The position numbers were made by a program, and so were the translations under genes. From the IMG/VR virus record IMGVR_UViG_3300048597_000080, positions 1 through 33,395 of that record: 33,395 nt of DNA. One strand, 5' to 3'. The first letter of the stretch is position 1; each line of letters opens with the position of its first letter. Positions 1,272 to 26,556 of the stretch are shown here, in pieces. Source of the stretch: a virus. The notes under the pieces are model-generated. The model did no database searches. It worked only from the letters and a program-made list of their open reading frames with translations, and had not been told where the DNA came from.

Positions 1272-1537
1272 GAGCAAGAGGCCTCTATCCAGCGTTGAAG
1301 GGCGGCGAAGTCACGCGCGGTTGTGGTCATCCACGTCCCGTCGCGAGCGGCGCGTTCGGCCATGGGCTCGCCCGCGCGGATTAGAGGAACGGCCGGCTTG
1401 ACCATGAGATCGGCCGGCGGACGGCAGGGTCCTCGCACAAGGTCGACGGGAACGGCGGCGACGGGCTCAGGGCGAGATGCGCAGGCGGTTGAGAGCGTCA
1501 GCACTGCCAGCATCGAAAACACATGTCGCAGGGACAT
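1268..1537 (-). CDS. Rz1-like outer-membrane spanin lipoprotein
   Basis: The 89-residue product starts with a lipoprotein signal: basic MSLRH, a hydrophobic stretch, then L-S-T-A-C as lipobox, which predicts cleavage before Cys19 and outer-membrane anchoring. The mature part is Pro- and Ala-rich, as in Rz1 proteins. Its start lies 71 bases inside the upstream Rz-like gene in another frame, the typical overlapping Rz/Rz1 arrangement. A GAGGTGG ribosome site precedes the ATG. With the inner-membrane partner it should fuse the two membranes in the last step of lysis. It is longer than lambda Rz1, so a general small lipoprotein is the alternative, but the nested position favours spanin. Confidence 0.75.
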   Translation of the reverse strand: MSLRHVFSMLAVLTLSTACASRPEPVAAVPVDLVRGPCRPPADLMVKPAVPLIRAGEPMAERAARDGTWMTTTARDFAALQRWIEASCS

Positions 1538-1853
1538 TGCGCACCACCTCTCGGATCACGGTTTCGGTTTCGGTCTCGCGGGCGGCGGTATCGGCCGCTC
1601 TGCCCTGCGCGTCGGCCACGCCCCTCGCATAGGCGGCCTCCTCGCTGGCCCGGATGGCGGCCCGGGCCTCAGCTTCCGCCCTGGCGCCCGCCGCCGCATG
1701 TGAGGCGTTGCAGGCGAGCGTGGCGGCCGCCTCATGCCGGGCGATCCGCGAGGCATCCCAGCGCCACAGGCCGAACGCCAGCGCCACCACAGCCAGCCCT
1801 GCGGCGACCCAGCGGCCGATCGGCGACGTCAGGAATGCAAGCGCCGCGGTCAT
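1467..1853 (-). CDS. Rz-like inner-membrane spanin
   Basis: The 128-residue protein has one N-terminal membrane segment (about residues 12-31, ending FGLWRWD) and then a long Ala/Glu/Arg-rich periplasmic region predicted to be a coiled coil, with a TETETVIREVV stretch and a C-terminal NRLRI. This is the layout of Rz-type i-spanins. The ATG at 1853 has a GGAGG site close upstream and overlaps the stop of the preceding small gene as ATGA. The lipoprotein partner begins inside its 3' end. It acts after the endolysin, linking inner and outer membranes for their fusion. An open frame extends further upstream but is composition-wise a shadow. Confidence 0.75.
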   Translation of the reverse strand: MTAALAFLTSPIGRWVAAGLAVVALAFGLWRWDASRIARHEAAATLACNASHAAAGARAEAEARAAIRASEEAAYARGVADAQGRAADTAARETETETVIREVVRNVPATCVFDAGSADALNRLRISP

Positions 1854-1993
1854 AGGAACCTCCAGACCCATTCGGGCAGGCTTCGCAGCCCGGCCCCATG
1901 GACAAACCCGGCGCCGTAGATGACGGCGACGGCGAGCGTTCCCCAGGCGAGGCGCAGCATGGCGGGGCCAGCCGCCTTCAAGCGCAGCATCAT
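1850..1993 (-). CDS. 47-residue single-span membrane peptide, lysis cassette
   Basis: A short basic N-terminus (MMLRLKAAG) is followed by one membrane segment at about residues 16-36 and a C-terminus ending in Trp-rich PEWVWRFL. Start and stop both overlap neighbours as ATGA, tying it between the four-span protein and the Rz-like spanin. Size and topology fit a pinholin, an antiholin or a small lysis accessory peptide; the sequence does not decide. It is easy to miss by length cut-offs, but the two coupled overlaps make it convincing as a gene. Confidence 0.65.
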   Translation of the reverse strand: MMLRLKAAGPAMLRLAWGTLAVAVIYGAGFVHGAGLRSLPEWVWRFL

Positions 1994-2451
1994 GGCTGGC
2001 CTCCCGGCGGCGAAACCGGCGGCGCGTATTTGTCGAGCACCCGGTTGAAGACGATGTTGACGATCTTGGTGCCCAGGAACCCGCCGACCCCGGCGATGCC
2101 CCAGCCCACGAGGGACGGGATCGCGGCCCATTGCGCCGTCGCCCCGCCGATGATGCCGAACAGGACACAGGAGGCGATCCGCGACACGTAATAGGCCCGC
2201 CGCACCCGCGCCGGCGTCCCAGGCGTGAAGGTCGGACGCTCGCCCGATTGCGCGAGGTCGCCGATCACGGCCGCCCCGGTCGGGCCCAGGATCGCGGCGA
2301 CGCCCTTCACGGCGCTCGAATACTCCGAGTTCAGCGCCTGCCGGGCATCGTCCGGCGCGAAGATAATCATCAGCGCGATCCCCACCACGATCAGGATCGC
2401 CCCCACGAAGGGCAGCAGGATCTTGGCGATTTCATAGGCGGCGCCCATCAT
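1990..2451 (-). CDS. multi-span membrane protein, holin candidate
   Basis: The 153-residue product has a strong hydrophobic segment at about residues 12-31 (LLPFVGAILIVVGIALMIIF). A polar stretch follows, then two or three weaker segments rich in Gly and Ala at about residues 90-135, and a Pro-rich tail. It directly follows the endolysin gene (three bases apart, with GGGGGTG as ribosome site inside that gene) and precedes spanins, so holin is the natural call. It is long for a holin and I recognise no named family. It may be a holin-like pore or another membrane lysis regulator. Confidence 0.55.
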   Translation of the reverse strand: MMGAAYEIAKILLPFVGAILIVVGIALMIIFAPDDARQALNSEYSSAVKGVAAILGPTGAAVIGDLAQSGERPTFTPGTPARVRRAYYVSRIASCVLFGIIGGATAQWAAIPSLVGWGIAGVGGFLGTKIVNIVFNRVLDKYAPPVSPPGGQP

Positions 2452-10727: not shown

Positions 10728-11164
10728 GGCCAGAGGCTCCAGAACGAGGGCGAGCGGTCACGCAGCCATTGCGCGTTCGCCTCCTGCAGCGTGACGCCGA
10801 GGCCGACCTGCGAATGGATCAGCATGCCCTCGCCGAGCGCGATGGCGCCGTGCGATTCCACCCGACCGAACCGGTAGAGCACGAAGTCGCCGGGCTGCAG
10901 GACTTCGGGCGCAATCGAGTGCGCCAGCGAGGCGACGACGTCACGGTAGATGGGGAGGTCTTTGTGCTGGTGCCAGTCGTGCGGATAGGTCGGGACGACC
11001 AAGCCCTCGAACCGGGCGGGCATGACGGCCCGATAGACGGCGAGCGGGAACATGGCGCAGTCGGCACCTGCGCCCTTCACGGCGGCCTTATGGTGATACG
11101 GAGTCATCAACCACGATTTTGCTTCGGCGACCACCGCCGCGCGCTGCTCCTTCTCAACGTCCAA
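10724..11164 (-). CDS. tail-associated NlpC/P60 peptidase
   Basis: A 146-residue cell-wall peptidase of the NlpC/P60 fold, matching the position of the GTA tail peptidase (between hub and megatron) and of lambda K. Visible motifs are SWLMTPYHHKA near the N-terminus, catalytic Cys36 in GADCAMF, the PGDFVLYRF strand and catalytic His105 in VESHGAIAL. It should cut peptide bridges of peptidoglycan during DNA entry. The start is a TTG at 11164 with a full AGGAGG seven bases upstream. Both lie in the 3' end of the GIY-YIG gene, whose stop overlaps this start region. The N-terminal RAAVVAEAKSW is echoed at the start of that endonuclease, indicating gene rearrangement by insertion. Confidence 0.88.
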   Translation of the reverse strand: MDVEKEQRAAVVAEAKSWLMTPYHHKAAVKGAGADCAMFPLAVYRAVMPARFEGLVVPTYPHDWHQHKDLPIYRDVVASLAHSIAPEVLQPGDFVLYRFGRVESHGAIALGEGMLIHSQVGLGVTLQEANAQWLRDRSPSFWSLWP

Positions 11165-11834
11165 GAGCTTTCCTCCTGCCGTCGCTGATCGCCTTTGACC
11201 TAGCCGCGCGCTGTTCGGGCTGCATTGCGGCCCAAGAGGCTGCGACCTTCAGGGCCGTCGCTGCTTTCTCTCTCTCTGTGGGCGGATGACGCCGCGGAAT
11301 GGCACGACACGAGAGCGCGCGTCGGCGACGCTCCTCCGGCGAAAGCTGCATTTTCTTTCCGCGATTTTGCGCCGCCACCCTGCGCATTGTTTCCACCGCA
11401 TCCGGGCGCGCCTTGCCGGTCTTCCCGATGGAAATCTTGCGTCGCCATTCCTCGGTGAAGACCCTCCCCTTCAATTTCGCGCGCATGGCGGCGCGGCTCT
11501 CGGGCGTGTTCACCGGCTCGTTGCCGCCGCGCGAAAGGTTCAGCGCAGTCGCCTTGTGCTGCGCGATCCAGTGCCGCTCGCGGACACGCCAGTCGCCGTT
11601 GCCCGTCTCGATGATGACCAGCCCGGGCCTCTCACCAGCAGCGGCGAGGCCAGTCAGCCAGACATGCACCGGTTGCTTGCGCCACGCCGCCTCGGTGAGG
11701 TGTTGCTTGTAGCGCTTGGCCGCGTCGGCCGATTTGCCGACATACCGTACGACGCCATCGGCATCCGTCAGGGCATAGATTGCCCAGGTGCGCGCCTCCG
11801 CCACGACGGCGGCGCGTTCTTGCGCTTCGGTCAT
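11154..11834 (-). CDS. GIY-YIG homing endonuclease with NUMOD3-like repeats
   Basis: The 226-residue protein has a GIY-YIG nuclease domain at about residues 17-105: AIY at 18-20, YVG at 31-33, Arg41 and His45 as catalytic candidates, and an NLSRGGNEPVN end. Basic NUMOD3-type DNA-binding motifs follow (GRVFTEEWRRKIS, GKARPDAVETMRR, GKKMQLSPEERRR), and a helical Arg/Lys-rich tail. Its first 17 residues do not belong to the nuclease fold but copy the N-terminus of the next gene, the tail peptidase (RAAVVAEA then Arg/Lys, Thr/Ser, Trp). It therefore seems to have inserted at the peptidase 5' end and taken over the start. The ATG at 11834 lies just after the hub-protein stop. A longer open frame upstream is a shadow. 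Confidence 0.88.
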   Translation of the reverse strand: MTEAQERAAVVAEARTWAIYALTDADGVVRYVGKSADAAKRYKQHLTEAAWRKQPVHVWLTGLAAAGERPGLVIIETGNGDWRVRERHWIAQHKATALNLSRGGNEPVNTPESRAAMRAKLKGRVFTEEWRRKISIGKTGKARPDAVETMRRVAAQNRGKKMQLSPEERRRRALSCRAIPRRHPPTEREKAATALKVAASWAAMQPEQRAARSKAISDGRRKALGR

Positions 11835-11836
11835 GA

Positions 11837-12697
11837 TCAGATCGCCGTTTCTGCCTTGGGCACGCGGGGGAAGCCCCGGAACTTCGCGGTGTTCGAATAT
11901 TCGCCACACGCCTCGTAGGATTTCACGCAGCCGCGGGTGACCTCGAACGTGTCGCCCGCCGTCGGGACGCGCGGGAGCGCCGAGGCCAGCGTCAAGGCGG
12001 TGCCGTCCCATGACCGGATCATGCGGCGGATGCCCCAGCACGGCCCGGAGGTGAACCTGATCTGCCCGAGGTCGTAGCCGCCGGCGGCGACCGCGCTCGT
12101 CATGGGGATGGTGGTGATCGTGGGGCCGGTCCCGACGGTCTTGCTGGCGGTGTAGGTCGCCTTCGACAGGCCGCACAGGGCATCGCAGAACGTGTTGGTG
12201 CACTGCGTCGAATAGACCGCCACCGGGTGCGGCGCATCTAGCCGGCGCAGCGGGTCCTCGCAGTTGAGGATCATATCCAGGCCGCGGGGATAGGCGTCGG
12301 CGACCTCGCCCACGAACTGCAGCTCGAGGCCGGCCGAGCAGTCGCCGGGGGTATCGCCGGGAGAGAAGGCGAAGAGGTATTCCACCCGGGCGCCGTCGAA
12401 GATGCCGTCCCGCAGGCAGGTCTTCCACGTCCGGCCATAGATCAGGTCGGTCGCGCGCGGGGTAATCCGCAGCTCGAGGTTCTGCACGCCGAGGCCGGCC
12501 TGTTTCACGATGTCGCCGCGGGCGAGTAGCGGGAAGCCGGGGCTGAACGTCTCGGCCGAGGGCGCGCTGATCGTGTAGTCGGCGGTCGAGAGGCGGATCG
12601 GCGTCGATTCTTCGGGCAGATAGATGCGGCATACCTCGGCGCGCACCCACTGGCGCAGCGCCTTGAGGGCCAGGAGTTCGGCGGAATTGCTGATCAT
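11837..12697 (-). CDS. tail hub protein, DUF2163/phage BR0599 family (GTA g13-like)
   Basis: The 286-residue protein matches the DUF2163/BR0599 family: an N-terminal beta domain with LRITPRATDLIYG, the GARVEYLFAF strand, and a C-terminal Cys-rich domain. Cys pairs at STQCTNTFCDALCG and at GCVKSYEACGEYSNT resemble the cluster-binding C-terminal part of lambda gpL and the GTA hub, which bind an iron-sulphur cluster; I infer the same here. The hub joins the distal tail protein to the tail-tip fibre. The ATG at 12697 overlaps the stop of the distal tail gene as ATGA. Confidence 0.85.
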   Translation of the reverse strand: MISNSAELLALKALRQWVRAEVCRIYLPEESTPIRLSTADYTISAPSAETFSPGFPLLARGDIVKQAGLGVQNLELRITPRATDLIYGRTWKTCLRDGIFDGARVEYLFAFSPGDTPGDCSAGLELQFVGEVADAYPRGLDMILNCEDPLRRLDAPHPVAVYSTQCTNTFCDALCGLSKATYTASKTVGTGPTITTIPMTSAVAAGGYDLGQIRFTSGPCWGIRRMIRSWDGTALTLASALPRVPTAGDTFEVTRGCVKSYEACGEYSNTAKFRGFPRVPKAETAI

Positions 12698-13287
12698 GTC
12701 GGCACGTACTGGAGGGCGAGCCGCTGGTTCTCGTAGAACGAGCGGACGAATTCGCGGAAGTTCGCCACGTCGTCGTCGAACCGGACCCGCCAGTAGTAGG
12801 TGAAGCTGGCGAGAATCGCGTGGGTGTTCGCGGGCGCGGAGGTGAAGGTGATGACGCCGGTCGCGGCATTGACCGTGTACGCGGTCGTCGGCGTCCCGTT
12901 GACCTTCACCTGCGTCATGGTGTTCGGCGAATAGATGGGCTCGGCAAAGCCCCCAAGCGGGCGCACCAGCTGCCAGGCGGTGCGCGAGCCGTTGCCGGTG
13001 CCGATCGGCGCATCGGTCACCGTCTTGTCGGCGATGTCCTCGAACAGGAACGTGTCGAAGCGGCCTTTATGGCGCAGGAAGAAGCCGAGCAGCGTGCTGA
13101 ACTCGGTGCGGCTTAGGTTCTGGCGCAGGAACTCGTAACGCAGCAGCCACGATCGGATGGGATAGGCCCGCATGGCCTGGCGGACTTCGCGGCCCGAGAC
13201 GTTCTTCTGGACCTCGGTCTCGAAAGCATACTTGCGCTCGGTGCCGAAGCTGAGGCCCGACAGGACGGGGAAGACCTCGTTGGACAT
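12694..13287 (-). CDS. distal tail protein, DUF2460 family (GTA g12-like)
   Basis: The 197-residue protein has the features of DUF2460: an opening with FPVLSGLSFG, a central RHKGRFDTFLFEDIAD stretch, the short beta insert VKVNGTPTTAYTVNAATGVI, and a C-terminal TYYWRVRFDDDVANF ending. In siphophages and GTA particles it forms the ring at the end of the tail tube that receives the hub. It lies between tape measure (stop four bases upstream) and hub, exactly the GTA order. Length is typical. Confidence 0.88.
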   Translation of the reverse strand: MSNEVFPVLSGLSFGTERKYAFETEVQKNVSGREVRQAMRAYPIRSWLLRYEFLRQNLSRTEFSTLLGFFLRHKGRFDTFLFEDIADKTVTDAPIGTGNGSRTAWQLVRPLGGFAEPIYSPNTMTQVKVNGTPTTAYTVNAATGVITFTSAPANTHAILASFTYYWRVRFDDDVANFREFVRSFYENQRLALQYVPT

Positions 13288-18952: not shown

Positions 18953-19426
18953 TCAGCCGTGCGCGCGGCTTTCACCGCGAACGATCTTGCTGATGTGCGT
19001 CTGGCCGACGCCGTAGCGGCGGGCGAGCGAGGCTTGCGAAACGCCCGGCCGATATGCCGAACGGATCGCCATGACTTGCTCTGTGGTCAGTTTCGCAACC
19101 ACACTCTCTTCGCCATGCAAGGCTGGGGGCGGGAGCGAATCCCTGCCCTTCGCCCGCATGTCGGCGAGGTTCTCCGCCTGCGTCGCAACCCGGAGGTGAG
19201 CCGGATTGCAGCAGGGCGGGTTGTCGCAGGTGTGCATGACGACGCGGCCAGCGGGGACGTGGCCCCCGCTGAACCGCAGCGCCAGGCTATGCGCCGTGTG
19301 CGTCCGGCATTTCCAGCCGAACGACCCGTAACCAGCCTTCAGGCGGCGGCCCAGCCACGGCCAGCACTCGTCTGGACCGCGCTTGTCGACCAGTCGCCAG
19401 AAGCCCGCTTCCGTATTACGGCGCAT
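18953..19426 (-). CDS. HNH homing endonuclease
   Basis: The 157-residue protein is an HNH_3-type nuclease. Visible motifs are CWPWLGRRLKAGYGSF, then AHSLALRFSGGHVP, the core VVMHTCDNPPCCNPAHL with the catalytic His and zinc-type cysteines, and RVATQAENLADMRAKGRDS. The C-terminus has an HTH with VSQASLARRYGVGQTHISKI that should supply DNA recognition. The ATG at 19426 lies eight bases after the capsid stop. Free-standing HNH genes beside essential structural genes spread by cutting phage genomes that lack them. It could alternatively be a DNA-packaging nuclease, but those lie near terminase. Confidence 0.87.
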   Translation of the reverse strand: MRRNTEAGFWRLVDKRGPDECWPWLGRRLKAGYGSFGWKCRTHTAHSLALRFSGGHVPAGRVVMHTCDNPPCCNPAHLRVATQAENLADMRAKGRDSLPPPALHGEESVVAKLTTEQVMAIRSAYRPGVSQASLARRYGVGQTHISKIVRGESRAHG

Positions 19427-19433
19427 AGGACAA

Positions 19434-20915
19434 TCATCCGTTGGCAATATTGGTGATGACGCCCAGCGACGGCGGGAAGTAGTGCTGCAGCACGCCGTCG
19501 AAATAGACGCCGTACTCACGCTTGCGCTGCACCAGCGGCCAGTCGATGGCGTAGTAGTCGCGCCGCAGCAGCTTGCGGAACACGTCCGAGACGCCCGACA
19601 GCGGGTAAGGCAGCATCGAGGTCGTGAACAGGATCGTGCCGTTCGGCAGGTTCGGGTGCAGCTTGATCGGGATCGCCGTGGCGCCGTCCAGGCTGAACTT
19701 GTTGAGGTAGGCGCGAACCGAAATGCCGCCGACCAGGCCGGACTGGTCGGAGGTGAAGACGAAGCGTTGCGCCGCCGTCGAGGATCCGTTGAGGATCTTC
19801 GCCTGCAGGTTCTTCATCTCCTGCGACGACACCCAGATGCAGTCCGGGGACAGCTTGTAGTTGTCCCAGAAGCTGGCGAGGGCGGTGTCGATCTCGGTGA
19901 TGCCGCCGGCGCTGTCCGAGGTGAGCGGGGTGCCGGTGCCGGCGGTGCCCGTCGCCATGGTCTTGACGTAGGCGCCCGAGCCCGACTTCAGGGCGATCGA
20001 GAGCAGTCCGTCATAGACCTTGTCGTTCGTGGACTGGTCGGAGGTGAACTTCGAGGTCGTGGTCTGCGTGCCGGTGGCGAGGGCGGTGATGACGACCGAG
20101 TTGATGGTCGTGATCGCACCCAGGACTTCCGAGCCCGAGGTCGTGCCCCAGAACCAGGCGTAGGCGACGGCGCCGTTGACGGGGGTGACCGTCGCGGCGA
20201 TTTGCTGGCCGGCCGTCGGGGTGACGGTGGCGACCGAGGACTTCTGCGCGTGGCCGCCCTTGTAGGTGTCGGTCTGGCCGCCCGCGATGACGCGCGAGGC
20301 GTCGGTGACGGCGATGCCGCCGGCCACGGAGGCCCGCAGATAGGCTTCGTGGGTCAGCGCGACGCAGACCACATAGTGGGCGACGTTCGTCAGGGACGTG
20401 CCCGAACCCGAGGCCGCAAGGCTCGGCGTCGGCGTGGTGCCGAGCGCGATCGAGGTGTTGCCGCCGAGGTCGATACGCTCTTCGCCGAGCATCAGCGAGC
20501 GCAGCAGGCCTTCCTTCGCCCGGGCGTTCACGTCGTCGAAGCCCGCGCCGGCCGACTCGGCTTCGAAGGTCACGTAGTCGTCGAGACCGAAGAAGCGGTA
20601 GGCGGCCAGGTATTCGGCCACCGACGTGGCGATGATGCCGCCGCGCAGGCCCTCGGAGATACCGATGCCGACATTGCCGGTGTTGATGCCGGTGATGGCG
20701 CGCCAGTTCGCCTGGATGCCGGCCTTGCCGGTGACGCGCGGGATGATGTTCCGCAGCGGGGTGAGGACCGGATAGAGGGTCTTCGCCGGGGCTTCGAGGT
20801 CGTAATAGGTCAGGCCGGTGGTGGCCGAACCGGACTGCGAGAACGACTTGCGCAGTTCCTCGCTTGCCGCGCTGTTCGCAAGTGCGGCCTTCAACGCTTC
20901 AAGCGTCTGAGACAT
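19434..20915 (-). CDS. major capsid protein, HK97-like, with inserted beta domain
   Basis: This 493-residue protein is the shell subunit. Evidence is position after the protease/scaffold gene, the N-terminal helical region, the TLYPVLTPLRNIIPRV segment typical of the start of mature capsid proteins, and a C-terminal P-domain region ending in KREYGVYFDGVLQHY. About residues 215-295 contain an Ig-like segment (VTPVNGAVAYAWFWGTTSG), probably exposed on the shell. I prefer ATG at 20915, preceded by GGAG, to the one at 20930, which has none. The size is large for HK97-type proteins because of the insert. Confidence 0.88.
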   Translation of the reverse strand: MSQTLEALKAALANSAASEELRKSFSQSGSATTGLTYYDLEAPAKTLYPVLTPLRNIIPRVTGKAGIQANWRAITGINTGNVGIGISEGLRGGIIATSVAEYLAAYRFFGLDDYVTFEAESAGAGFDDVNARAKEGLLRSLMLGEERIDLGGNTSIALGTTPTPSLAASGSGTSLTNVAHYVVCVALTHEAYLRASVAGGIAVTDASRVIAGGQTDTYKGGHAQKSSVATVTPTAGQQIAATVTPVNGAVAYAWFWGTTSGSEVLGAITTINSVVITALATGTQTTTSKFTSDQSTNDKVYDGLLSIALKSGSGAYVKTMATGTAGTGTPLTSDSAGGITEIDTALASFWDNYKLSPDCIWVSSQEMKNLQAKILNGSSTAAQRFVFTSDQSGLVGGISVRAYLNKFSLDGATAIPIKLHPNLPNGTILFTTSMLPYPLSGVSDVFRKLLRRDYYAIDWPLVQRKREYGVYFDGVLQHYFPPSLGVITNIANG

Positions 20916-22045: not shown

Positions 22046-23662
22046 TCACTCCTTAACGGTGACTGCGACGTCGCAGACGCAGTTATGTGTTAGGATTCCC
22101 TCGGCGACGTAGACGCCGCTTCCAGTCTCAAGGTTGAAGACATGGCCCTCAAAAGACCTGACCTCGATGTCGATTACCTCGTCCGCGAATACCTGGCCGG
22201 ACAGTCGATCAATCAGCTCGCCGGCATCGTCGGCGCGGACCGCGTGACCGTCACCAAGCGCCTGCGGGAGCGCGGCGTTCACATCCGAGGCATCAGCGAG
22301 GCGTACCCGCTGCACTTCGCGAAACTCTCCCCCGAGCAGCGCGCGAGCAAGGTCAAGGCCGCCCATCAGGTTGCCCGCACCCGCACGCATACTGTCGAGG
22401 AGCGGCTTGCCCGCGCCGCCACCGTCCAGGCCAAGGGCCTGCACATCAGCCCAATCGAGCGGGAACTTGCCGCCATGCTGTTGGAGCGAGGCGTCACCAC
22501 GGTCCCGCAATGCGCGATCGGCCCATACAATTGCGACCTCGGAGCCAGCCCCGTCGCCGTGGAAGTCTTCGGCGGCGAGTGGCACTGGTCTGGCCGTCAC
22601 CTGCTGCGAACGCCCGAACGCTTCCGCTACATCCTCAATGCGGGGTGGCACATCTTGGTGCTCAAGATCACCGCCCGCCGATTCCCACTCACGCCCGCGA
22701 TGGGCGACTACGTTGCTGCCTACATTGAGGAGGCGCGCCGGAACCCATCCGCCATCCGAGAGTATCGGGTGGTTCGGGGTGCAGGTGAGCTCCTTGCCGC
22801 TGGCCGTGCGGACGATGAAGACATTTCCATCGTACCGACGCTTACTCGCGGCAGAAATTCCAGCGGCCAGTACGCGAGCGTCCCCCGGTAGGCAGTTGGG
22901 GTGCGCTGGCGTCCATGCGTGGCCGCTTTGAAACGTGGCGTCGTAGGCGATCGGGCCCTGGTCGGCGTTGCCCTGGCATTCGTCGCAGGGGTTATCCTCG
23001 CCGATCAGCCATTCCTTGGTCTGGATCCCGACGCCGGAGGCCTCGAGGCCCTGCTTGAAGCCCTCCGAGTTCGCGATGGCGAGCTCGGTGCGGGCGATGG
23101 TTTCGGCGCGCGCGGCGTTGAAGGCCGGGCTTTTCGCGATCTCTTCGGCCAGCTTCCGCGAGGACCAGCCTTCCTTGATGGCGCTCGTCACCGCGCCGCG
23201 GACCTGCTTGCGGGTCGCCTTGGTCACGTCCTTGACCATTTCGGCCGCCCGCTTCTGGGCGAACTTCACGGCATCTTCGTGCACGACCTCGATCAGCTCG
23301 CGGCGCACCGCGGCGGTGACCTCGACGCCCATGCGGATCAAGGCCTGCTCGGCAGCCTCGGCGAAGACGGTCTCGGCGTACTGCGCGACGGCATCCTCGA
23401 TTCCGGACCAGTCCCCGAAATCGTGCCCTGCAATCGCGTGGTCGGCCCGGCGATTGTCGTCGTCGGGCTCGTCGGCCTTGGTCAGATCGCCGAGCGTGTC
23501 GGCCATGTCGGCGGCGAAGGCCCTGCCCGCCTTGCGCAGCACGCCGTGGACGCGGCGTGCCATCAGCTTCATGGCGCGCTGGACGCTCGGGCGCTCAGTC
23601 CTGAGCTGGATCGTCTTCACTGGCGCCCGGCTTGTGGTCGTGCGGATCCTCGCCTTCGGCAC
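22046..23662 (-). CDS. Mu F-like head morphogenesis protein interrupted by an intein
   Basis: The 538-residue precursor contains a 256-residue N-extein, a 271-residue intein and an 11-residue C-extein. The extein is the Mu F/SPP1 gp7 minor head family: the RAETIARTELAIANSEG helix, then GEDNPCDECQGNADQGP and HAWTPAHPN. After splicing the family's HPN-C-x-C motif is restored. It is thought to act inside the head at the portal. The start is uncertain: GTG at 23662 or GTG at 23620, both inside the portal gene's 3' end. The C-extein end overlaps the protease start region. The whole intein is also read on the other strand. Confidence 0.88.
   Translation of the reverse strand: MPKARIRTTTSRAPVKTIQLRTERPSVQRAMKLMARRVHGVLRKAGRAFAADMADTLGDLTKADEPDDDNRRADHAIAGHDFGDWSGIEDAVAQYAETVFAEAAEQALIRMGVEVTAAVRRELIEVVHEDAVKFAQKRAAEMVKDVTKATRKQVRGAVTSAIKEGWSSRKLAEEIAKSPAFNAARAETIARTELAIANSEGFKQGLEASGVGIQTKEWLIGEDNPCDECQGNADQGPIAYDATFQSGHAWTPAHPNCLPGDARVLAAGISAASKRRYDGNVFIVRTASGKELTCTPNHPILSDGGWVPARLLNVGSNVVAHRGREWESAGGDLEHQDVPPRIEDVAEAFGRSQQVTARPVPLAAEDFHGDGAGSEVAIVWADRALRDRGDASLQQHGGKFPLDWADVQALGLDGGGAGKPLLDSMRAGAGNLMGGLDLARALLGGEFREVQRVRLADASDVNAALPQALGDGHAVRADDAGELIDRLSGQVFADEVIDIEVRSFEGHVFNLETGSGVYVAEGILTHNCVCDVAVTVKE
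22063..22076. repeat. 14-bp perfect palindrome beside the intein site
   Basis: CTGCGACGTCGCAG is its own reverse complement. It lies in the C-extein codons, five bases from the intein end. It could be part of the endonuclease target or simply a coding coincidence (codons for Cys-Asp-Val-Ala). Confidence 0.45.
22082..22894 (-). mobile_element. intein in the Mu F-like gene
   Basis: The first residue is Cys (codon 22894-22892) in CLPGDARV, block A. Block B reads TPNHPIL at about intein residues 39-45. Block F/G is VYVAEGILTHN, ending His270-Asn271, followed by Cys as the +1 residue. All splicing residues are present, so it should be active. No LAGLIDADG or HNH domain is seen in the sense reading of the middle (about residues 75-230). 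That middle is instead the exact antisense of an endonuclease gene. The intein is inserted in the most conserved motif of the host protein. Confidence 0.9.
22142..22891 (+). CDS. antisense homing endonuclease inside the intein (HTH + Vsr/EDxHD-like)
   Basis: The 249-residue protein is encoded on the strand opposite the intein. Residues about 11-50 form a helix-turn-helix of the ...SINQLAGIVGADRVTVTKRL type. After a basic helical linker, residues 103-200 look like a very-short-patch-repair/PD-(D/E)xK-type nuclease: Glu107, Asp132 in YNCDLG, AVEVFGGEWHW with Glu141 and His148, and ILNAGWHILVLKI. The C-terminal region is acidic then basic. The ORF starts 60 bases inside one intein end and its TAG ends one base before the first intein codon, so it never leaves the element. 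AAGG lies nine bases before the ATG; no promoter is evident. Shadow ORFs are common in this register in GC-rich DNA, but the ordered domains argue for a real gene. Confidence 0.8.
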   Translation: MALKRPDLDVDYLVREYLAGQSINQLAGIVGADRVTVTKRLRERGVHIRGISEAYPLHFAKLSPEQRASKVKAAHQVARTRTHTVEERLARAATVQAKGLHISPIERELAAMLLERGVTTVPQCAIGPYNCDLGASPVAVEVFGGEWHWSGRHLLRTPERFRYILNAGWHILVLKITARRFPLTPAMGDYVAAYIEEARRNPSAIREYRVVRGAGELLAAGRADDEDISIVPTLTRGRNSSGQYASVPR

Positions 23663-24980
23663 CCAGCATGGGCGACGGCGCAGGCGGTTCGTTCGGCTCG
23701 TCGCCCCACGGCACCGGATCGCGGCCCATTTCCTCGCGGACCTCGTTGACGACCAGCACCTTGGCGTCGAGGTAGAGCTTCCGCGCCTGGGCGGTCGCGA
23801 CCTGATCCTCGTCCTCGCTGTCGTCCCAAGCGAAGTCGCAGTCGGCGTAGCCCATCACGGCGAGGCAGCGATCCATCACCGCCTCGATGTTCTGCATCAG
23901 CGGCAGGATGCCCTCGGCGGTGGCCTGCTTCTGGGCGGTCTCGGCGGTCGCCCGGTTGACCTGCGCGACGAACGGCGTCGGCGGGATCGAGAAGGCGAAG
24001 CAGACAACGCGTGCCAGCCACTCGTCGTAGGCGTCCTTGATGACCGCCTCGCGGGTCGGGACGTAGCCCTTGGCGATATCGCCCGGCACGAACCGCGCTC
24101 GGCGCTGCATCGCAGGATTGCCGGCGAGCAGGCTGTCCCAATAAGCCTGGAACTCCTTGGTCTGGTCGGTCGTCCAGGACTCGGGGACGCCGATCAGGGC
24201 CTCGGGGACGTTGCCCTCGGTGAAGTAGCTGATCTGCGTGATCTGCCGCTTCAGGGCGATGTTGACGGTCACGATGACCTGCTCGACCGGCGAGAAGCCG
24301 TAGAGCTTGTTCACCCGCGGGTTGGCAATCGCATAGATCAGCTCGTCCCGCGTGAAATCCGCGGCCGGAATGCCCTTGAGCACCTGCTGAAACGCGGCCT
24401 CGGGCGGCGCCGGCGTCCGACCGGTCTGGTCGATGATCGGCTTGATGGTCGCGCCGTCGATCAGATCGAGCGAGTAGACGCCGCCGCCCCGCGTCATGTG
24501 CGGGTAGATCGTCAGCGCATCGGTGACGAGGATTTCCTCGACCAGCATGCGCAGCCATTGGCCCCAGTTGTGGATGCGGTCAGGCGACTGCAGCGCCTTC
24601 TCCGCTTCCTCAGCCCGCTTCATATGCGCGCGGGAGGCGACCTTGCCCTTGGGGAGGCGCGGCCGGACCTTCCACTTCATCTTCTGGATCTGGTCTTTGC
24701 GTGTCTCGATGACGAGGCGCAGCAGATCGTAGCCGTCGGCGAGCGCGCGCAGTTCGGCGAAGCCGGTCCCCGCGGTCGAATCCCGGCGGGGCGTGACCTG
24801 CAGGTTCAGGCCGGTGTTGAAATCGAACTGCCGCCCCTTCACCTCGGGCGGCGCCATGGGCTGGATGGTGGGGCCGGGGCCGAACCATTCCGGGGCCTGG
24901 CCGGTGAAGGCGTAGCGGATGCCGGCAGCCACGCGCGCGATGACGCCCGGCTGAATCGGGGTGCGGACGGGCTCAGCCAT
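23595..24980 (-). CDS. portal protein
   Basis: The 461-residue protein has portal features: an N-terminal region with RQFDFNTGLNLQ, the ADGYDLLRLVIETRKDQI and KMKWKVRPR segments, a beta region with GGVYSLDLIDGATIKPI, then the FTRDELIYAIANPRVNKLYGFSPVEQV block and the long helix with AQVNRATAETAQKQATAEGI. It forms the dodecameric DNA gate at one capsid vertex. The ATG at 24980 overlaps the terminase stop by eight bases (ATGGCTGA); the open frame extends further upstream only within terminase. The C-terminal tail is acidic and overlaps the Mu F-like gene. Confidence 0.9.
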   Translation of the reverse strand: MAEPVRTPIQPGVIARVAAGIRYAFTGQAPEWFGPGPTIQPMAPPEVKGRQFDFNTGLNLQVTPRRDSTAGTGFAELRALADGYDLLRLVIETRKDQIQKMKWKVRPRLPKGKVASRAHMKRAEEAEKALQSPDRIHNWGQWLRMLVEEILVTDALTIYPHMTRGGGVYSLDLIDGATIKPIIDQTGRTPAPPEAAFQQVLKGIPAADFTRDELIYAIANPRVNKLYGFSPVEQVIVTVNIALKRQITQISYFTEGNVPEALIGVPESWTTDQTKEFQAYWDSLLAGNPAMQRRARFVPGDIAKGYVPTREAVIKDAYDEWLARVVCFAFSIPPTPFVAQVNRATAETAQKQATAEGILPLMQNIEAVMDRCLAVMGYADCDFAWDDSEDEDQVATAQARKLYLDAKVLVVNEVREEMGRDPVPWGDEPNEPPAPSPMLGAEGEDPHDHKPGASEDDPAQD

Positions 24981-26556
24981 TCTGGTCACGCTGGGCGTTT
25001 TCGGCGGCGGCAGCATCCATGACCTGTTCCCTGTAGAAGTCGATGAGACCGGTCTTGCCGCCTCCCAGCGCGAGTTCGTTCACGGCGTCGGCGAATGCGT
25101 CGACACGATCGTCGTGCGGTGCGCCGCCCGGGAACGCGCAGACCTCCTCGAGGAAGCCTTCGTTCCAGGCGCCGCGCACCAGCTTGATGTTGCCGGCCTC
25201 GGCCTGTGCGGCTGCCGGTGCGGCGCGCAGAGCCTTCTCGCCGGTGGGCCGGACGGCCTTGACGATCCAGCCGGCCAGCAGCGTCAGGTAGCTGGCGGCC
25301 TGGTCCTTGCCCGCCTGCCCCGGGTCCTCGGGGATGCGGATGCGGACGCGGGTGCCGTCGGCCTCGGCCGTGGTCTTGACCGTCTGGCGGACCATCGCCG
25401 CCGTTTGCTGCAGCCGCTCTTCCTTCTCGACGTAGAAGATGCCCGAGCGGTCACGCGCGACGCGGATGCCGACGGTCCAGTCGGGCTTGGTGCCGGGTTT
25501 CGGCTTCGTCGCCGCGAAGTCCCAGGCCCGGACGCGTGTGGCCTCGACCGGCGCGGCATCGACAATCTCGAACCAGCCCCGCTGGAACATGCCGCCGTCG
25601 CGCGGTGTGGGCCGCTGCTGGTACTGGCCGGCATAGGCGTAGCTGCCCATGTCGCGCTTGAGCTTGTCGACGACCGCGGGCGGGAAGCGCACCGGGTCGA
25701 GGAGCTCACCGTCCTGCGTCCGTGGATCCCGGAAGCCGAGCGCTGTCTCGCAGGCGCGCTCGACCTCGAACTCCATCGGCAGCATCAGGTGGACGTAATC
25801 CATGCCCAGCGACTTGATGACGCCGCTGATGTCCTGATCGTGCAAGCGCTGCATGATCACGACGATGGCGGACGCCTCCTGGTCGTTGAGGCGGTTCTGC
25901 GCGCCCTCTCGAAACTGCCGGGTCGTGGCGTTCCGGACGTCGTCGCTCTCGGCCGTCTTGGTCGAGTGCGGGTCGTCGATGACGAGACGGTCACCGCGCT
26001 GCGAGGTGAGCGACCCGAAGGCGACGCCCTCGCGGTAGCCGGTGTCGCTGTTCGCGAACGACGTCTCGCCCGTCCGGACCAGCTGCACTTCGGGCCAGAG
26101 CGCCTGATACCAGTCCGACAGGATCAGGTCGCGGGTCTTGCGCGTGTCGCGCGTGACGGGCCCGTCGTTGAACGAGGTGGTGATCGTGCGGAGCGATCGA
26201 CGGCCGCACGGCCCCCATTCCCAGGCCTGCCAGAAGACGCTGACGATCAGCGATTTCATGCTGCCGGGCGGCACGTTGACCAGCAGGCGATTGATGCGCC
26301 CGGAGGTTACTGCCTCGAGGTGATCGCAGACCGCATCGATATGCCAGTTGTGGACGTAGCGCTGGACCGGCTCGAGGACGTGCCAGGCCTCGCGGATGAA
26401 GCCGGCGAGCGTGCGGCAGCGCGCGCGGATCGCCGCGGCGTTCTGCCTTGTGGCCTCAGCCTCCCGGCGTGCCTTCTCCTGCTTGATCTGCGCCAGCAGG
26501 CTCGGAAGCGCCCGCAAGTCGAGCGAGCGTGCTCTCAAGGGTTTCGAGTTCGCCAT
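24973..26556 (-). CDS. terminase large subunit
   Basis: The 527-residue packaging motor has an ATPase domain with Walker A PPGSMKS at 96-102 and Walker B RLVIDDP at 190-196. The nuclease domain has WDFAATK with Asp346, and HDDRVDAFADA with Asp482, Asp483 and Asp486 as metal ligands. A helical N-terminal extension precedes the ATPase. It pumps DNA through the portal and cuts it. The start lies inside the 3' end of the small terminase gene (101-base overlap). Length is normal. Confidence 0.93.
   Translation of the reverse strand: MANSKPLRARSLDLRALPSLLAQIKQEKARREAEATRQNAAAIRARCRTLAGFIREAWHVLEPVQRYVHNWHIDAVCDHLEAVTSGRINRLLVNVPPGSMKSLIVSVFWQAWEWGPCGRRSLRTITTSFNDGPVTRDTRKTRDLILSDWYQALWPEVQLVRTGETSFANSDTGYREGVAFGSLTSQRGDRLVIDDPHSTKTAESDDVRNATTRQFREGAQNRLNDQEASAIVVIMQRLHDQDISGVIKSLGMDYVHLMLPMEFEVERACETALGFRDPRTQDGELLDPVRFPPAVVDKLKRDMGSYAYAGQYQQRPTPRDGGMFQRGWFEIVDAAPVEATRVRAWDFAATKPKPGTKPDWTVGIRVARDRSGIFYVEKEERLQQTAAMVRQTVKTTAEADGTRVRIRIPEDPGQAGKDQAASYLTLLAGWIVKAVRPTGEKALRAAPAAAQAEAGNIKLVRGAWNEGFLEEVCAFPGGAPHDDRVDAFADAVNELALGGGKTGLIDFYREQVMDAAAAENAQRDQNG

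Follow-up and report, generated by a model that had tools for sequence, protein, structure and literature searches.

A conserved putative homing endonuclease gene in codon register with, and on the strand opposite to, an intein in a phage Mu F-like head gene

The virus record IMGVR_UViG_3300048597_000080, a DNA of 33,395 bases that was analyzed at its full length ("the window"), contains on the minus strand an open reading frame (ORF) for a Mu F-like head morphogenesis protein of 538 amino acids, exteins plus intein (positions 22046-23662), which was identified by Pfam (PF04233, E=6.5e-8) and by matches to PHROG head proteins. Inserted into this gene at ...HPN^C, with the junctions AHPN and CVCDV, is an intein of 271 amino acids (22082-22894, minus strand). 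An antisense ORF of 249 amino acids (22142-22891), carried by the plus strand of this DNA segment, encodes a putative homing endonuclease. This ORF is located entirely within the intein and starts 60 bases from the 22082 end. Both frames are in a codon-on-codon register, in which every plus-strand codon pairs in full with a single codon of the intein; for instance, the nuclease codons GCC GTG GAA (AVE) are the complement of the intein codons TTC CAC GGC (FHG). An initial annotation had proposed a complete intein in a Mu F-like gene, had placed both elements at these coordinates, including the 60-base offset and the end of the TAG at 22891, and had described the register by means of the nuclease active-site codons. 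The positions and the register were exact, and the Pfam models Phage_Mu_F and Intein_splicing both matched a protein in which the splicing residues were present.

The minus-strand element displays the features of a class 1 intein, which are an N-terminal Cys, a TxxH motif in block B, a terminal His-Asn, and Cys+1. It was matched by Intein_splicing (PF14890, 2.1e-8), by the NCBIfam models for N- and C-terminal intein regions (TIGR01445/TIGR01443), and by intein profiles from the PDB. On the minus strand, the codon of Cys1, the N-terminal splicing nucleophile, is at 22892-22894, block B (TPNH, intein residues 39-42) at 22769-22780, and the penultimate His with the terminal Asn271 at 22082-22087, the Asn codon being 22084-22082, with Cys+1 next. 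Cys1, Gly23, His42, Gly49, and Asn271 were invariant in an alignment of 46 relatives, and T39, P40, and N41 were present in at least 90%. The AlphaFold model reached a predicted local distance difference test (pLDDT) value of about 90 or more for residues 1-70 and approximately 230-271, and the splicing domain adopted the HINT fold (Mtu RecA intein, Z 13.6, root mean square deviation [rmsd] 1.6; Hedgehog, Z 13.7). In the linker, residues 127-225, the pLDDT was mostly below 50, so that this part is disordered according to the model. No nuclease family matched the minus-strand protein in Pfam, NCBIfam, PHROG, or PDB-profile searches. Judged by these motifs, profiles, and the predicted fold, the element is a class-1-type intein, which would be able to splice.

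The 249-residue plus-strand protein had been described as a helix-turn-helix (HTH) plus Vsr/EDxHD-type nuclease, and the family profile and the fold predicted by AlphaFold 2 both matched Vsr-like enzymes. As a single sequence, it gave a weak match to the restriction endonuclease family MTES_1575 (PF18741, E=4e-4) and to an HTH in Pfam. The family profile matched the homing endonuclease I-Bth0305I (PDB 3R3P, E=2.3e-7) and the DUF559-like structure 3HRL (E=8.6e-6). The model, calculated from 46 sequences, had a mean pLDDT of 88.8 and a predicted template modeling score of 0.75; VIA-align 2 aligned it to Escherichia coli Vsr (1cw0; Z 11.5, 114 aligned residues, rmsd 2.3 A) and to I-Bth0305I (3r3p; Z 9.8, 95 residues, 2.8 A). 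The top match in Foldseek was also I-Bth0305I, but only with E=2.5e-3. The HTH should comprise residues 10-43 (22169-22270, plus strand), as indicated by a weak PF19575 match, HTH_58 in 7 of 15 family members, and the helices of the model, and the alignments to Vsr and I-Bth0305I outline a nuclease domain of residues 100-221 (22439-22804, plus strand).

Within this domain, E106 (22457-22459) is a Glu in 60 of 62 loci and is opposite an intein Leu or Phe, D132 (22535-22537) is an Asp in 60 of 61 and opposite Val or Ile, and E141 of the AVE motif (22562-22564) is a Glu in 60 of 61 and opposite Phe, which is always TTC, or Leu. Altogether, E106, Y129, N130, D132, A139, E141, and R160 were each kept in at least 59 of the 61 to 62 loci, and the intein residues opposite such positions varied (Leu/Phe, Val/Ile, Ala/Ser/Thr). 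The EDxHD set of the family contains the conserved E106, D132, and E141 plus H148, which occurs in 44 of 61 loci; I-Bth0305I has both Glu residues and an Ala opposite D132. Of the active site suggested by the initial annotation, the Glu of AVE was near-invariant, while His148 was common but not invariant. The predicted structure gives the plus-strand protein a Vsr-like nuclease fold, and the protein may be active as a nuclease.

The borders of the plus-strand gene are embedded in conserved parts of the intein. Its ATG start codon (22142-22144) is the complement of the CAT codon for the His of intein block F (HVFNLE or HVYNLE), and a Shine-Dalgarno-like AAGGT (22130-22134, plus strand), 7 nucleotides upstream of the ATG, is the complement of the block F Asn-Leu codons. 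Most relatives contain the Shine-Dalgarno sequences GAGGT or GGAGGT in place of AAGGT. The block F His codon was CAT in 42 of 45 loci with a His at this position, compared to 39% of the His codons in the exteins, and the block F Leu codon was CTC in 43 of 52 loci, compared to 23% of the extein Leu codons; the preference for CTC generates GAGGT or GGAGGT at a Shine-Dalgarno distance from the ATG. Both codon preferences are not explained by the intein protein and show, as far as codon choice can do so, that the nuclease start site is maintained. The stop codon TAG (22889-22891, plus strand) is the complement of a rare CTA Leu codon, the second codon of the intein, and adjoins the Cys1 codon; in many loci, the longest antisense-open run begins at this intein position 2. 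Further inside, the complement of the block B TPNH codons encodes a conserved VVRG in the C-terminal part of the nuclease.

The two-strand arrangement was kept in homologues. A tblastn search of phage genomes with the plus-strand protein yielded 127 records, 115 of them covering at least 80% of the protein, and most of the matches listed lay beneath genes for Mu F, head, or minor capsid proteins, many of which had only a hypothetical annotation. Scans of viral contigs with sub-family alignments added 83 loci and a genome scan added 1. The nuclease and both intein ends were detected in 99 entries, which include the window locus twice, and in 99 of 99 the nuclease was antisense and in the identical register. 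This held throughout the 62 representatives, which are loci with less than 90% identity of the intein amino acid sequences. The hosts of the phages belong to Pseudomonadota and Actinomycetota (phages of Salmonella, E. coli, Pantoea, Pseudomonas, Vibrio, Klebsiella, Aggregatibacter/Haemophilus, and Gordonia), and further loci came from one Chloroflexota plasmid and from metagenomes. A family-profile search of 369 genomes found no further full-length antisense copy beyond that of the seed genome, the other matches comprising either HTH repeats or no more than the nuclease domain of the superfamily, and searches of viral contigs with the window proteins directly had one remote Mu F as the sole match. 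In a gammaproteobacterial genome (L113:1302-3030, plus strand), a 576-amino-acid open frame was composed of repeats resembling the HTH part of the nuclease. In Salmonella phage GE_vB_HIL (L022), a record flagged UNVERIFIED, apparent frameshifts break both frames and are probably sequencing errors.

Homologues of the plus-strand protein also exist outside such an overlap. Besides I-Bth0305I and Vsr, the nuclease domain is found in DUF3320 and DUF559-like cellular proteins, and Acinetobacter phage IME285 (L016) possesses a free-standing full-length homologue (hhalign probability 99.8 over 249 columns), which is annotated as a coding sequence without an antisense intein. This gene (L016:455-1348, plus strand) and an intein-free Mu F gene (1342-2055, minus strand) are convergent with an overlap of 7 bases, and the Mu F gene contains an intact ...PMCKC... 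site.

Evaluation of a long antisense ORF needs to consider the base composition. Antisense stop codons arise from TTA, CTA, or TCA codons of the intein, and their expected number was derived from the codon usage of the exteins of each gene. The window gene has a GC content of 68% and about 2 antisense stops would be expected in its intein, so that the open antisense frame alone means little here. The antisense frame is open too in homologues with a GC content of 34-45% in their exteins, where 13-30 stops were expected. In the 62 representatives together, 113 antisense stops were observed compared to 537 expected, many of the 113 being the nuclease's own stop codon or just beyond the nuclease ORF; for the 14 loci with an extein GC fraction rounding to below 0.50, the numbers were 36 and 241, respectively. 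Only one representative (L063) had an antisense-open run of less than 200 codons. Synonymous shuffling that preserved the intein protein reduced the score of the nuclease hidden Markov model to a median of 56 bits (maximum, 121), compared to a real median of 232 bits (minimum, 153), and a shuffle reached the real score in 0 of 46 held-out loci. Reciprocally, shuffling that preserved the nuclease protein destroyed the splicing-domain scores. On these sequence statistics, a chance origin of the antisense frame is excluded.

Selection was assessed for both strands with disjoint pairs of relatives and substitution classes in which the first letter indicates the effect on the intein and the second that on the nuclease (N, nonsynonymous; S, synonymous). 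As the control, the exteins of the same genes were treated as if they had an identical antisense frame, omitting pairs with less than 50% extein identity. The pairs were few (those from Gordonia and nine others with more than 66% nucleotide identity), and the SS class was small, too. The corrected distances in the intein were 0.085 (NN), 0.235 (SN), 0.362 (NS), and 0.725 (SS), compared to 0.153, 0.989, 0.179, and 1.66 in the extein control. The nuclease-frame ratio NN/NS was consequently 0.23 (bootstrap, 0.20-0.27) versus 0.86 (0.75-0.97) in the control, and the intein-frame ratio NN/SN was 0.36 (0.31-0.42). The nuclease- and intein-frame ratios were, respectively, 0.20 and 0.54 in the linker, 0.27 and 0.25 in the N-terminal splicing segment, and 0.39 and 0.18 in the C-terminal splicing segment. 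In independent alignments of 149 pairs, the nuclease strand had the greater amino acid identity over the linker in 131, and the reverse applied to both splicing segments. Constraint was not confined to the intein strand: the substitutions show purifying selection on both strands, with the nuclease dominating over the disordered intein linker and the intein in the C-terminal splicing segment.

The element is sporadic among close relatives. Jerseyvirus ER10 has an uninterrupted Mu F site (...PPAHPNCRST...), where LSPA1 has the intein, and 451 phage records matched the LSPA1 Mu F gene, 58 of them covering at least 80% with the intein. Kagunavirus fEg-Eco06 (L015) carries an antisense-nuclease intein at a Cys different from that used in phage Snoke (L001), in a nearly identical Mu F protein. 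The divergence of inteins and exteins was discordant in both directions: the intein was less diverged in several pairs, including close Jersey-type phages, and in the Gordonia phages exteins with 98-99% identity surround inteins with 73-84% (Nordenberg versus Barsten, 99% and 73%). Intein-free sites, insertions at two sites, and this discordance together indicate mobility. In L063 and L064, the intein frame is intact and antisense stops interrupt the nuclease, while the 75% identical L072 is intact; the nuclease of the former two is apparently decaying, as expected in a homing cycle.

These data are explained with high probability by a mobile intein that uses both strands, a splicing intein on the minus strand and a homing nuclease of the HTH plus Vsr/EDxHD type with its own start on the plus strand. 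The minus strand would be translated within the Mu F protein, from which the intein would excise itself by means of Cys1, the block B TPNH, the terminal His-Asn, and Cys+1. The plus strand, with its own Shine-Dalgarno sequence and start codon, would yield a separately translated nuclease, which most likely would cut Mu F genes that lack the intein in prophages or co-infecting phages, and recombinational repair of the cut gene would then copy the intein in. Constraint would be split along the DNA, the catalytic core of the nuclease being opposite the variable, disordered intein linker and the splicing blocks opposite the nuclease termini, where both proteins would be constrained. The comparisons show two real and conserved reading frames, each subject to purifying selection, a maintained nuclease start site, and an element that some close relatives have and others lack; we infer cutting by the nuclease, its target site, homing, splicing, and transcription of the plus strand. 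Some points weigh against this interpretation. A consensus scan of the plus strand near the nuclease start found no sigma-70-like promoter or terminator. In the profile alignment, I-Bth0305I has an Ala opposite the near-invariant D132, and the active sites may not be equivalent. The loci were mostly retrieved via the nuclease frame and are therefore enriched for intact nucleases; a search with the intein frame recovered a similar set of records. Moreover, the doubly synonymous class has few sites, and a dating argument from it is rough. The two-strand interpretation as a whole is nevertheless well supported, and neither of the two refuting conditions named in the initial annotation held, given the homologues beyond any overlap and the constraint on both strands.

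The plus-strand ORF could alternatively be a shadow, kept open by a high GC content and by conservation of the intein in a register that needs TTA, CTA, or TCA codons for stops. The GC-rich window with its many long antisense ORFs and only about 2 stops expected in the intein would agree with this, but the frame is open at 34-45% GC, the real nuclease score lies beyond every shuffle, the nuclease-frame ratio is far below that of the extein control, and the protein matches I-Bth0305I, Vsr, and a free-standing homologue. Stop counts, two-way synonymous shuffles, the phantom frame in the exteins, and the region-wise substitution classes rule a shadow ORF out, and its probability is close to nil. 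Conversely, the nuclease gene may be real, and Mu F may just tolerate the minus-strand sequence as an open insert that does not splice. Such an insert would fit the stronger constraint on the nuclease strand over a disordered linker; it would not account for the invariant Cys1, His42, Asn271, and Cys+1, the confident HINT fold, the intein-frame ratios of 0.25 and 0.18 in the splicing segments, or the loss of the splicing-domain score in shuffles preserving the nuclease, and is very improbable.

Somewhat less remote, albeit still unlikely, is a function of the antisense nuclease or DNA-binding protein other than homing, such as phage exclusion, defense, or control of Mu F through an antisense transcript. 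Vsr-like and DUF559-like nucleases have varied roles, and an antisense transcript would be complementary to the Mu F messenger RNA. However, the nuclease is almost wholly restricted to Mu F inteins, its presence is sporadic, intein and extein divergence are discordant, its closest structural relative among characterized proteins is a homing endonuclease, and an intein-free Mu F gene adjoins the free-standing homologue, all of which agree better with homing of a two-strand intein.

A second nuclease may have entered such an arrangement. A tblastn search revealed a different type of antisense ORF in the Gordonia phages Nordenberg, Barsten, Lennon, Sitar, Thing3, and SchottB. The intein that contains it in Nordenberg and Barsten occupies the Mu F site used in Vivi2, and the inteins of Nordenberg and Vivi2 are just 31% identical, compared to 97% for the exteins. 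The Nordenberg ORF (195 amino acids, AAYVAAFIDGEGTV...; L143:2004-2591, minus strand) is again codon-on-codon and has LAGLIDADG-like matches, namely I-MsoI in the PDB (E=0.0012), phage genes with a homing endonuclease annotation (E=7e-6), and, at only E=0.26, LAGLIDADG_3 in Pfam. Between Nordenberg and Barsten, the antisense ORF is 92.8% identical and the intein strand 73%, and NN/NS is 0.25 compared to 1.06 in the exteins. A search of viral contigs for relatives of this ORF found none. The ORF is likely, but not certainly, of the LAGLIDADG type and probably represents a second origin of the two-strand arrangement. There is a good chance that two-strand inteins are a general mobile-element architecture with at least two origins at the same Mu F site, one of the EDxHD/Vsr type and one of the LAGLIDADG type, in which the register trades the nuclease core and the splicing blocks against each other's tolerant regions.

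Canonical mobile inteins such as PI-SceI contain in-frame LAGLIDADG or HNH homing endonuclease domains. The Mu F element resembles them in its HINT splicing domain, its probable endonuclease-linked mobility, and its sporadic presence at conserved sites of a host gene, but its endonuclease is a separate protein from the opposite strand, and its splicing blocks are joined in frame by a disordered linker with no nuclease domain. I-Bth0305I is an EDxHD homing endonuclease encoded by a group I intron (PMC3943268); the antisense nuclease shares the Vsr-like fold but is opposite a coding intein, has a D132 that is unshared in the profile alignment, and has its own layout with an N-terminal HTH. In the ShiLan-type insertion (PMC11855218), an HNH endonuclease is encoded on the same strand but out of frame, in an insert that is not an intein and lacks a splicing domain. 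That insert, too, is open when read in the host frame and hides a homing endonuclease in another frame, whereas the Mu F element has an opposite-strand nuclease and intein motifs. The gene for I-DsqI is antisense to a nuclear group I intron in ribosomal DNA, within a P9.2 loop insertion (PMC9548176), and is also on the strand opposite a self-splicing element; unlike the Mu F intein, this element is a ribozyme, with no codons common to two proteins. The capsid morphogenesis protein of E. coli phage Snoke was reported to contain a "large intein", near-identical in LSPA1 and absent from K1ind2, in a paper that mentions neither homing nor an endonuclease (PMC6776784). This Snoke intein is a direct family member and contains the antisense nuclease. 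No description of an opposite-strand intein endonuclease was found in the literature searched, the preprint by Gosselin et al. and the "Non-canonical inteins" of Gorbalenya 1998 being outside that search. The former, from 2025 (bioRxiv 2025.01.02.630785), reportedly deals with actinobacteriophage inteins of "non-canonical architecture", in a set that includes Gordonia phages like those described above, and may already describe the actinobacteriophage cases. It is cited for overlapping reading frames in PMC11855218. This preprint may lower the claim to priority, not the biological finding.

The neighbors of the Mu F gene in the window are a portal gene (23595-25016, minus strand) and a terminase gene (24973-26556, minus strand). 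At 18953-19519 (minus strand), the window also encodes an HNH endonuclease that has an HTH at its C-terminus (PF13392, E=3.5e-9) and is likely a free-standing homing endonuclease; its gene directly follows a probable major capsid gene and overlaps it. A 571-amino-acid protein (11154-12869, minus strand) gave a marginal match to GIY-YIG (PF01541, 22.5 bits compared to a cut-off of 22.6).

To our knowledge, cases in which two conserved, folded proteins are encoded antisense to each other over a long stretch have rarely been demonstrated beyond chance ORFs. An overlap of approximately 250 codons in dozens of divergent lineages, each with its own extein control, provides a quantitative model for the co-evolution of two proteins on one DNA. 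When an intein is labeled as large without a nuclease, a homing endonuclease may be present, unannotated, on the other strand, for instance, in well-studied phages of Salmonella and E. coli. Owing to the one-to-one pairing of codons, changes that inactivate the nuclease can be silent in the intein, and vice versa, which makes ideas about the homing cycle testable.

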